From Microbacterium sp. W4I20 (GTDB lineage: Bacteria; Actinomycetota; Actinomycetes; Actinomycetales; Microbacteriaceae): a stretch of DNA of 64,000 nucleotides. Under the pieces are notes generated by a model. That model was not told the origin of the DNA. It was given only the letters and a program-made list of their open reading frames with translations, and did not search any database. Positions within the stretch are counted from its first letter, which is position 1. Every line of letters begins with the position of its first letter. Shown here one piece after another: positions 15,610-39,101 of the stretch. The stretch is from assembly GCF_030816505.1 (NCBI RefSeq), contig NZ_JAUSYB010000001.1, positions 3,782,001 through 3,846,000 on the forward strand, given 5' to 3'. The position numbers were made by a program, and so were the translations under genes.

Positions 15610-15954
15610 TTAGTGTGCGGCGTTGTACGCCTCGACGACGGGGCCGGGAATGCGGCCACGCTCCGACAGCGAATAACCGTTCTCATTCGCCCACGTACGG
15701 ATGGATGCGACCTCCGGGTTACGCGCGGAGCGCTTGCGAGGCGCAGCCGTTCGGGCCGATCCGGAGGAGCCCGCTTTGCGACCCGCCGAGATGTACGGCT
15801 CGAATGCCTTACGCAATTCCTCCACATGATCGACATTCAGATCGATCTCATAGGCGGTGCCGTTGAGCGAGAAATGTACGGTCTCGCCCTCGCCGACCTC
15901 CAGCACGCTTCCGTCGATGTCGTCTACTAATTGGTGCACAATTCGTCTGGCCAT
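15610..15954 (-). CDS. lsr2: Lsr2-family nucleoid-associated protein
   Basis: This 114-residue protein is a functional analogue of H-NS that bridges AT-rich DNA and silences acquired genes. The N-terminal dimerisation part is MARRIVHQLVDDIDGS...TVHFSLNGTAYEIDL. A basic linker is followed by the C-terminal DNA-binding domain with NPEVASIRTWANENGYSLSERGRIP, in which the AT-hook-like RGR loop is intact. The start at MARR follows the family; a 4-residue longer start at 15966 is possible. Protein length and both domains are normal. Confidence 0.93.
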   Translation of the reverse strand: MARRIVHQLVDDIDGSVLEVGEGETVHFSLNGTAYEIDLNVDHVEELRKAFEPYISAGRKAGSSGSARTAAPRKRSARNPEVASIRTWANENGYSLSERGRIPGPVVEAYNAAH

Positions 15955-16013
15955 GGAATTGACCATAGCGCACGCTCATATCGCCGACAAGAAAGTCTGG
16001 GGCGATATATCGA

Positions 16014-16340
16014 TTATTCGTGCCCGGTGTCGATCAGCTTCAACCCGACGATGCATCCGACCAGGCCCATCAGCAGAAGAATGCGCACCCAGGAGATCTC
16101 GGTGTCGCCCGTGATCATGGCCCAGACGACGGTGAGTGAGGCGCCGATACCGACCCAGACGGCGTAGGCCGTTTCGGTGGCGATATCGCGCATCGCGAAT
16201 GCGAGGCCGAACATCGACAGCGCCAGGCCGACGAAGAAGATGACACTCGGCCAGAGTTTGGTGAGGCCCTCCGACTTTCCGAGGGCGGTTGCCCAGACGG
16301 CCTCGAGAACTCCGGAGACGATGAGAATGATCCACGGCAT
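16014..16340 (-). CDS. gdx: SMR-family guanidinium exporter (Gdx/SugE type)
   Basis: This 108-residue, four-TM small multidrug resistance protein works as a dual-topology dimer in the membrane. The essential Glu is E13 in IVSGVLEAVWATALGKSEG, and the TM2-TM3 region ETAYAVWVGIGA is the SugE/Gdx signature rather than EmrE. The gene carries a guanidine-III riboswitch in its leader, so guanidinium export is strongly implied. AAAGGA lies 6 bases before the ATG at 16340; a longer in-frame start upstream would run through the riboswitch and is rejected. Confidence 0.9.
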   Translation of the reverse strand: MPWIILIVSGVLEAVWATALGKSEGLTKLWPSVIFFVGLALSMFGLAFAMRDIATETAYAVWVGIGASLTVVWAMITGDTEISWVRILLLMGLVGCIVGLKLIDTGHE

Positions 16341-16344
16341 GATC

Positions 16345-16358
16345 GGTCCTTTCGGACC
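16345..16358 (-). promoter_or_regulatory. Shine-Dalgarno-sequestering hairpin (expression platform)
   Basis: Reading the minus strand, GGTCC-GAAA-GGACC forms a 5-bp stem that buries the AAAGGA ribosome-binding site. The GGTC of its 5' arm is also the 3' arm of helix P2 of the riboswitch, so the two structures exclude each other. Guanidine binding would stabilise P2 and free the ribosome-binding site. Confidence 0.6.
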
Positions 16359-16399
16359 AGTCTTTTCGCTCACCGGGTACTGGTCTGCCTCGTCCGGGG
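16354..16399 (-). promoter_or_regulatory. guanidine-III riboswitch (ykkC-III)
   Basis: On the minus strand the leader reads CCGGACGAGG (16397-16388), then GACCAG, then GTACCCGGT, then a purine-rich AGCGAAAAGA, then CTGGTC. The conserved ykkC-III elements CCGGACGAGG, UACCCGGU and AAGAC are all present. The first CCGG can pair with the CCGG of UACCCGGU (pseudoknot), and GACCAG pairs with CTGGTC (P2). The class is established as a guanidinium sensor, and the downstream gene is an SMR exporter as expected. Confidence 0.85.
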
Positions 16400-16464
16400 C
16401 CGGTGATCGCCGACCGTTTCCGATGATATCCGGTTCGCCTGGGCAGGCACTGGGCACGCGTCGA

Positions 16465-16500
16465 GGCAGGAGGACCGGCAGGAGGACCGGCAGGAGGGCC
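16465..16500. repeat. 12-bp tandem repeat, three copies
   Basis: The unit GGCAGGAGGACC is repeated three times (third copy with one A to G change) between the LuxR stop codon and the riboswitch. No function is evident; it could change length by slippage. Confidence 0.7.
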
Positions 16501-16510
16501 GGCAGAGGAG

Positions 16511-17371
16511 TCAGGGGAGCAGGCCGGCGCGCCGCGCCCGCGTCACCGCCGAGTGCCGGGTCGACGCGTCCAGTTTCGACATCGCCGTTCCGAGGTAGGC
16601 CTTCACCGTGCCTTCGCGCAGTCCCAGCTGGGAGGCGATCTCGGCATTGGTCGAGCCCAGTGCGGCGCAGGCGAGCACATCGGTCTCGCGTCGCGACAGG
16701 TGCACGGTGGGCACGGGGCCGGTCGCCGCAGGGACGGCGTCTCCTGCGAGGGTGACGAGCCGTCTCTCCACCAGGGCGATCCTCGCTCGGAGCTCCGCAT
16801 CGTCGACCGAGGCCGCGATGCTGCGGAGCTCGGCGAAACTCTCGCGCAGCTCTTCGCGCTGGGGTGCGGCGACCCCTGCCTCGCCCGCCGCTGACGCCGT
16901 GCGCAGCCGACGCTGGACCTCGTCGCGGATGCGGAGCTCGTCGGCGACCGACTGAGCGACCTGCATGGCAGGGGCGGTGGTCACTCCGCCGACCTGCTCC
17001 TCATCCCAGGCTCCGGCGTAGAGGACTCCCCGTGGCCGCCCCTGCACGACGATCGGAAGGGCGAGAAGAGTGCGCAGGCCCTCGCCGAGCACGAAGACGT
17101 CATAGTCGTGGGTGATCTGCTGGGAGGACCCGTAGTCGCTGGTCATCCGCGGGCGCAATTCCATCATGGCGCGCCCGCCGAGCCCGCGCTCGGGGCGCAC
17201 GCGCAGTCCGTCCAGGGCCCTGGTGCGGTTGCCGACGATGCTGGTGACGCTCACGACCCCTTCCTCGATGAGGCCGCCGAAGGCCACCGGGAAGCGCGTG
17301 CGTCTGGCCAGCTCGCGCACCGCATTGGCGACGAGTTCGCCCTCGGATTCGATGGCGACCGGTGAGCTCAC
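16511..17371 (-). CDS. GAF-LuxR transcriptional regulator (RamA-like)
   Basis: This 286-residue protein has an N-terminal GAF-like sensor (about 10-155), a helical linker and a C-terminal LuxR helix-turn-helix, LSRRETDVLACAALGSTNAEIASQLGLREGTVKAYL (about 228-263). There is no phosphoacceptor domain, so control is probably by a small ligand. It is divergent from DUF485-actP across 109 bases. Its size and architecture resemble RamA, the acetate-metabolism regulator of C. glutamicum. Control of acetate uptake is inferred from context. Confidence 0.8.
   Translation of the reverse strand: MSSPVAIESEGELVANAVRELARRTRFPVAFGGLIEEGVVSVTSIVGNRTRALDGLRVRPERGLGGRAMMELRPRMTSDYGSSQQITHDYDVFVLGEGLRTLLALPIVVQGRPRGVLYAGAWDEEQVGGVTTAPAMQVAQSVADELRIRDEVQRRLRTASAAGEAGVAAPQREELRESFAELRSIAASVDDAELRARIALVERRLVTLAGDAVPAATGPVPTVHLSRRETDVLACAALGSTNAEIASQLGLREGTVKAYLGTAMSKLDASTRHSAVTRARRAGLLP

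Positions 17372-34059: not shown

Positions 34060-39101
<5,042 letters not shown>

Follow-up and report, generated by a model that had tools for sequence, protein, structure and literature searches.

A guanidine-III riboswitch with probable translational ON control over a Gdx-type guanidinium exporter gene in Microbacterium sp. W4I20

The window analysed here, a stretch of 64,000 nt of DNA from Microbacterium sp. W4I20 (NZ_JAUSYB010000001.1) to which all coordinates refer, carries on its minus strand what is probably (we would say about 0.8) a guanidine-III riboswitch acting as a translational ON switch for a guanidinium exporter of the Gdx type. In the proposed mechanism, the 3' strand of P2 (16361-16355) would, when guanidine is absent, be captured by the bases that follow it to give GGTCC-GAAA-GGACC, a hairpin that would lock up both a portion of the Shine-Dalgarno sequence and the bases leading to the start codon. 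Bound guanidine would stabilise the pseudoknot and P2, withdrawing that strand, barring the hairpin and leaving the ribosome able to bind, so that translation of the exporter would be confined, or largely confined, to conditions in which guanidine is present. Computation gave the class of the aptamer, the type of gene, the mutual exclusion of the two helices, the persistence of the hairpin among same-type leaders and, across relatives, a P2 3' strand with excess complementarity; we infer that this copy binds guanidine, which fold it adopts in vivo, and how strongly and in which direction control is exerted. The features concerned are:

16419-16352, minus strand: guanidine-III (ykkC-III) aptamer, the whole match to model RF01763
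16397-16388, minus strand: motif CCGGACGAGG, from the sequence
16397-16394, minus strand: 5' strand of the pseudoknot, CCGG, which opens the CCGGACGAGG core, from the sequence; aligned with the model consensus CCGGACGAG
16385-16379, minus strand: 5' strand of P2, GACCAGT, from the model structure line, pairs checked
16379-16372, minus strand: motif TACCCGGT, from the sequence
16376-16373, minus strand: 3' strand of the pseudoknot, CCGG, within TACCCGGT, from the sequence
16364-16360, minus strand: AAGAC, from the sequence
16361-16355, minus strand: 3' strand of P2, ACTGGTC, the proposed switching strand, from the model structure line and the excess complementarity in relatives
16358-16345, minus strand: alternative hairpin GGTCC-GAAA-GGACC, exclusive with P2, from the pseudoknot-free fold and same-type leaders
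16353-16347, minus strand: Shine-Dalgarno sequence GAAAGGA, 6 nt before the ATG, from complementarity to the 16S 3' end
16340-16014, minus strand: SMR gene of Gdx (guanidinium exporter) type, 108 aa, from PF00893 and structure 6wk5

Membership of the guanidine-III class is confirmed by the covariance model. With cmscan, RF01763 matched over its entire length (model positions 1-67 of 67) at 48.3 bits and an E-value of 5.8e-7, above the curated gathering score of 36, which answers the Rfam check with the ykkC-III model put forward in the first-pass annotation; a search of the W4I20 genome found no second RF01763 match. The class core, CCGGACGAGG ... GTACCCGG ... AAGAC, is present along with the complementarity of P2 and of the pseudoknot (model alignment and pair check), and the motifs, the P2 strands GACCAG/CTGGTC and the CCGG-CCGG strands named in that annotation were all found at their places on the minus strand when checked against the sequence. 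The observation is real, and two of its boundaries need correction: the end of the interval at 16399 is too short, the model match beginning 20 nt further upstream and adding a 5' hairpin, and P2, given as six pairs, is indeed paired but extends to 7 bp in the model alignment (GACCAGT/ACTGGTC). In the lowest-energy fold, TCATCGG (16426-16420) is paired with CCGGTGA (16376-16370) on the same strand; the latter contains the 3' strand of the pseudoknot, and this predicted pairing is possibly a second anti-aptamer helix.

The ATG of the SMR gene lies at 16340, separated from the end of the model by 11 nt, and its stop ends at 16014. The earlier description of an exporter gene is borne out by a match of the 108-aa protein to PF00893 (E 3.2e-19; 69.7 bits against a cut-off of 23.7), which confirms the SMR family, and by an alignment with the closest solved structure, 6wk5 (Gdx-Clo; E 7.7e-17, residues 1-102), in which E13, W16, S42 and W62 are shared. 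The second of these residues distinguishes Gdx from the Qac subtype, where Gly or Ala is found (PMC7695847), and the protein looks like a guanidinium exporter of the Gdx type. At the NCBIfam SugE equivalog level the cut-off was missed (best model PRK11431.1 SugE, 78.1 bits against 126), which puts the protein outside the narrow SugE equivalog and leaves the wider Gdx subtype undecided by that comparison. Gene partners already recorded for ykkC-III include emrE/SMR and speB (PMC2864571); the window holds a new copy of a known class with a known partner gene. Further along the same strand, an Lsr2-type DNA-binding protein gene (15966-15610; PF11774, PF23359) begins 47 nt past the SMR stop, if its listed start is right, and a downstream block at 14880-10731, also on the minus strand, includes isopentenyl-diphosphate isomerase (14880-14314) and, judging from translations, putative carotenoid-pathway genes.

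The alternative hairpin joins GGTCC (16358-16354) to GGACC (16349-16345) through a GAAA loop. Its incompatibility with P2, as first annotated, is upheld by the fold and by same-type leaders, with the qualification that only GGTC of GGTCC lies in P2. It had also been placed over the ribosome-binding site, which is true in part: the Shine-Dalgarno sequence GAAAGGA, identified by its complementarity to the 3' end of 16S rRNA (duplex -8.7 kcal/mol; the window's 16S gene runs to TCACCTCCTTTCT, and the Rfam 16S match stops at 35580 inside TTT), is half covered, with GGA in the stem and GAAA forming the loop. When the window leader was folded by a program that ignores both the pseudoknot and the ligand, each of which favours P2, the hairpin pairs reached probabilities of 0.985-0.987 and the P2 pairs 0.0, and minimum energy rose from -36.1 kcal/mol in the free leader to -30.1 kcal/mol with P2 forced, a cost of 6.0, a result that proves only that both states can compete. 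Opening the region from the Shine-Dalgarno sequence to the start in this leader (L001) costs 8.32 kcal/mol with the P2 strand available and 3.41 once it is withdrawn, compared with 7.97 and 5.85 kcal/mol for shuffled linkers, and its best Shine-Dalgarno hexamer is unpaired with a probability of 0.667 when free, 0.974 after withdrawal of the strand and 0.726 when free with shuffled linkers.

Whole-leader folding energy was rejected as evidence, because the leader shows no excess of stability over its dinucleotide shuffles (z -0.63); support comes instead from the score of the covariance model, from the conservation seen in relatives and from the excess of complementarity. Separately, on the plus strand (16345-16358), the same hairpin followed by AGTCTTTT was called terminator-like, where 0.1 such calls were expected; it might stop antisense transcription, or it might be a by-product.

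Conservation was followed in overlapping genome samples, in which stricter filters miss weak matches wherever a sample exceeds 40 genomes. At E <= 0.001 the genus sample gave the aptamer in 38 of 59 genomes, the family sample in 146 of 299, the order sample in 144 of 297 and the phylum sample in 51 of 396; 38, 138, 136 and 42 genomes, respectively, held a match over the family cut-off. A further 71 loci were added through SMR similarity, 50 of them named Microbacterium or Agromyces. Together with the window, 370 loci yielded 359 matches to the core pattern (the 12 without it include L160 and L314, both Rfam matches), of which 24 were removed for having fewer than four continuous P2 pairs, leaving 335; eight had no recognised start. 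Requiring no more than 34 nt from GAC to the start left 314 loci, whose 253 distinct leaders form the test set; by first holder, 18 of these trace to the phylum sample and 235 to the SMR-similarity set or to the samples of genus, family and order. As leaders with P2 mismatches (e.g. L176-L178, L183, L184) and long linkers were left out, the results that follow describe short-linker leaders.

Leaders of the same type as the window's, beginning GACTGGT, number 11 distinct sequences at 23 loci (the window being counted twice). GGTCC is present in ten of the 11; L197 instead carries GGTTC, and its P2 is altered to match (AACCAGT). Their four-base loops (GAAA, GGAA, GGGA, GAGA and GTGA) are all of the GNRA type, one leader has the five-base loop GAAAG, and the 3' arm is imperfect in two, L068 and L075 (GGACATG, GGAACAT). 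These sequences support a hairpin kept across same-type leaders, imperfectly in two. It should be borne in mind that a GNRA-like loop overlapping the Shine-Dalgarno sequence could be purine-rich regardless.

In the set of 253 leaders, most of which belong to the order of the window, the P2 3' strand and the bases preceding the start codon show greater complementarity than controls do. The first eight bases from GAC pair with their own linker at a mean of -6.69 kcal/mol, against -5.91 for linkers swapped in from leaders of another type and -4.41 for shuffled linkers, and predicted pairs between the P2-strand region and the linker average 3.23 against 1.35 in shuffles, with more in 188 of 253. 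Thinned to 62 leaders below 80% identity, the value of -6.57 kcal/mol differs from those of swapped linkers (-5.81, p 0.018), the reversed strand (-4.62, p 1.7e-5) and shuffles (-4.40, p 3.4e-8), and four other aptamer strands reach only -3.98 to -4.58 kcal/mol against the linker. Among 33 leaders (<75%) the shuffle contrast alone persists (p 0.0027; swapped p 0.21, reversed p 0.099), and among 18 (<70%) no complementarity contrast does. Of the 253 real leaders, 53 have an uninterrupted stem of at least six pairs, where shuffling the linkers gives 17.4, and 95 have no such stem of four pairs or more, where shuffling gives 118.4.

Withdrawing the P2 3' strand also lowers the opening cost from Shine-Dalgarno sequence to start, a measure picked after the result for the hexamer was known: the drop is 5.37 kcal/mol against 2.73 in shuffles and larger in 205 of 253, and it persists on thinning (4.89 against 2.81, n = 62, p 3.1e-6; 4.86 against 2.77, n = 33, p 1.2e-5), becoming weak at the strictest level (3.51 against 2.59, n = 18, p 0.054). 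Pairing of the Shine-Dalgarno hexamer itself was tried as a general measure and rejected: its mean unpaired probability, 0.586 for the real leaders, is 0.543 when linkers are shuffled and 0.521 when the P2 strand is taken away, withdrawal leaves it freer in only 94 of 253, and its pairing does not exceed that of shuffles.

The commonest arrangement is unlike that in the window. In it, the GAC of the aptamer core has a possible partner in a GTC adjoining the start codon, and pairing of the two would leave some or all of the Shine-Dalgarno sequence in the loop; examples are GACGGCC-CGCTGGA-GGTCGTC-ATG (L137) and GACTG-GCCAAGGAGCA-CAGTC-ATG (L009). Of the 253 leaders, 144 have GTC as the last three bases ahead of the start; among other mechanical starts preceded by a Shine-Dalgarno motif the count is 12 of 186. 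It is possible, and we propose it tentatively, that many guanidine-III riboswitches of the order share a clamp of this kind, in which the core GAC and P2 3' strand would pair with GTC and its neighbours before the start and hold the Shine-Dalgarno sequence in a small loop, and that in the window's clade this has given way to a hairpin with a GNRA cap, which would draw the sequence partly into its stem. Were this so, the ligand core would itself take part in the OFF state. Covariation is not claimed for it, since significance is lost once close relatives are removed: in register 0, the first two tested pairs gave p 0.002 and 0.0025 (the third 0.83) over all 150 leaders, and after thinning by coding sequence no significance remained, at 0.12/0.21 (n = 102), 0.47/0.71 (n = 55) and 0.62/0.72 (n = 28). 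The three pairs tested in register 3 (35 leaders) gave p 0.008, 0.97 and 0.30, and no pair reached significance in register 2 (six leaders). The clamp did not turn up in the literature passages surveyed, which leave aside the original guanidine-III and RNase E papers; as described across relatives it may be new to print, and no novelty is claimed for it.

Several other accounts of the leader have to be weighed against translational control. The best of them, itself unlikely, accepts a genuine riboswitch and has it act mainly on mRNA stability, the pseudoknot halting the scanning of RNase E and the hairpin being secondary; guanidine-III has indeed been said to shield transcripts from RNase E (a review, PMC12186494, citing Richards and Belasco 2021), but a pure stability mechanism gives no call for the P2 3' strand to be unusually complementary to the bases before the start codon. 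The two effects are compatible, and such protection may act alongside translational control. Less probable again is an aptamer with no real switch, in which P2 is always formed and the hairpin is a chance match within a GC-rich and purine-rich ribosome site. In-line probing of the Thermobifida fusca riboswitch had P1 and P2 formed even without guanidine (Huang et al., PMC5696562), and were P2 to behave likewise here the hairpin would not win; the ordinary stability of the whole leader (z -0.63), the closeness of swapped linkers to the true value (-5.91 and -6.69 kcal/mol) and the failure of withdrawal to free the Shine-Dalgarno hexamer on average are also in keeping with it. What weighs against chance is that the stem is kept in same-type leaders (two imperfectly) although the loop varies, that other aptamer strands are less complementary (-3.98 to -4.58 against -6.57 kcal/mol), and that GTC before the start is frequent in leaders (144/253) and rare elsewhere (12/186).

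A transcription attenuator, with GGTCC-GAAA-GGACC as an intrinsic terminator, has in its favour a compact GC-rich hairpin past the aptamer, but GATCATG comes next with no T run, no minus-strand terminator turned up when 15950-16650 was scanned, and the hairpin sits on the ribosome site; the idea is very improbable and was rejected. Rejected with still greater confidence was a coding role, for although an open frame with an in-frame GTG at 16457 would run through the aptamer to give a 147-aa protein, the M-x-W starts of relatives follow soon after the aptamer at a variable distance that does not keep frame, and the covariance-model match spans all 67 positions.

The association of aptamer and exporter extends to the relatives, where a pattern test found the downstream gene to be SMR-like in 343 of 357 loci, or 284 of 298 once the 59 loci obtained by SMR similarity are removed. 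Seven of the 357 (L218, L231, L242, L267, L338, L339, L346) have the aptamer before a non-SMR small membrane-like protein of 82-149 aa, often with a QWGFLLLEGVWA-like stretch; for the two tested, from L242 and L218, Pfam gave nothing at E 0.01. These proteins, which we take to resemble CBU_0592-like proteins, are possibly a new guanidine-related gene family. At L168 and L364, and perhaps L185, the gene is weakly like the small multi-drug export proteins of PF06695 (first 90 residues of the L364 protein, 21.2 bits, below the cut-off of 30.7). At L163, L173 and L174 the aptamer precedes a protein of 383-388 aa, presumably of the SpeB/agmatinase group, and the first 90 residues of the L173 protein had no Pfam match. 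One genome of the same genus (G022) has two guanidine-III matches, L197 and L198, the first before an SMR gene; the frame after the second includes MPWIVLL and is perhaps a second SMR gene.

The window offers one testable copy of guanidine-III with both competing helices spelled out, and the 253 leaders offer a concrete expression-platform model for the class. If the clamp is confirmed, the mode of translational control would be settled for the window's order; otherwise, what is left is an ordinary annotation.

Positive translational control of this copy, as inferred in the first-pass annotation, would agree with what has been put forward for the class: Huang et al. proposed in 2017 that folding around the ligand exposes the ribosome site, a translational ON switch (PMC5696562), in the same paper terming the guanidine-III mechanism less well established, and a translational ON switch is also proposed in a 2025 review (PMC12186494). 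Guanidine-II (mini-ykkC), likewise described as a translational ON switch (PMC12186494), differs in having two stem-loops (PMC5696562), and gave no Rfam match over the cut-off within the window. The W4I20 copy resembles guanidine-III in its full-length match, its core strings, its P2 and pseudoknot strands and its site before an SMR gene; it departs from RF01763 in the C of GACAAGAC, here an A (GAAAAGAC), and no feature places it outside the class. As a class member it would be expected to bind guanidine at micromolar concentration, and its exporter, as a Gdx protein, to exchange guanidinium for protons. The riboswitch of Thermobifida fusca belongs to the same aptamer class and carries the same exposure proposal (PMC5696562). 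There, the ribosome site lies 16 nt past the aptamer in a region said only to be capable of secondary structure (PMC5696562), whereas in W4I20 it begins right where the aptamer ends and the competing hairpin can be specified.
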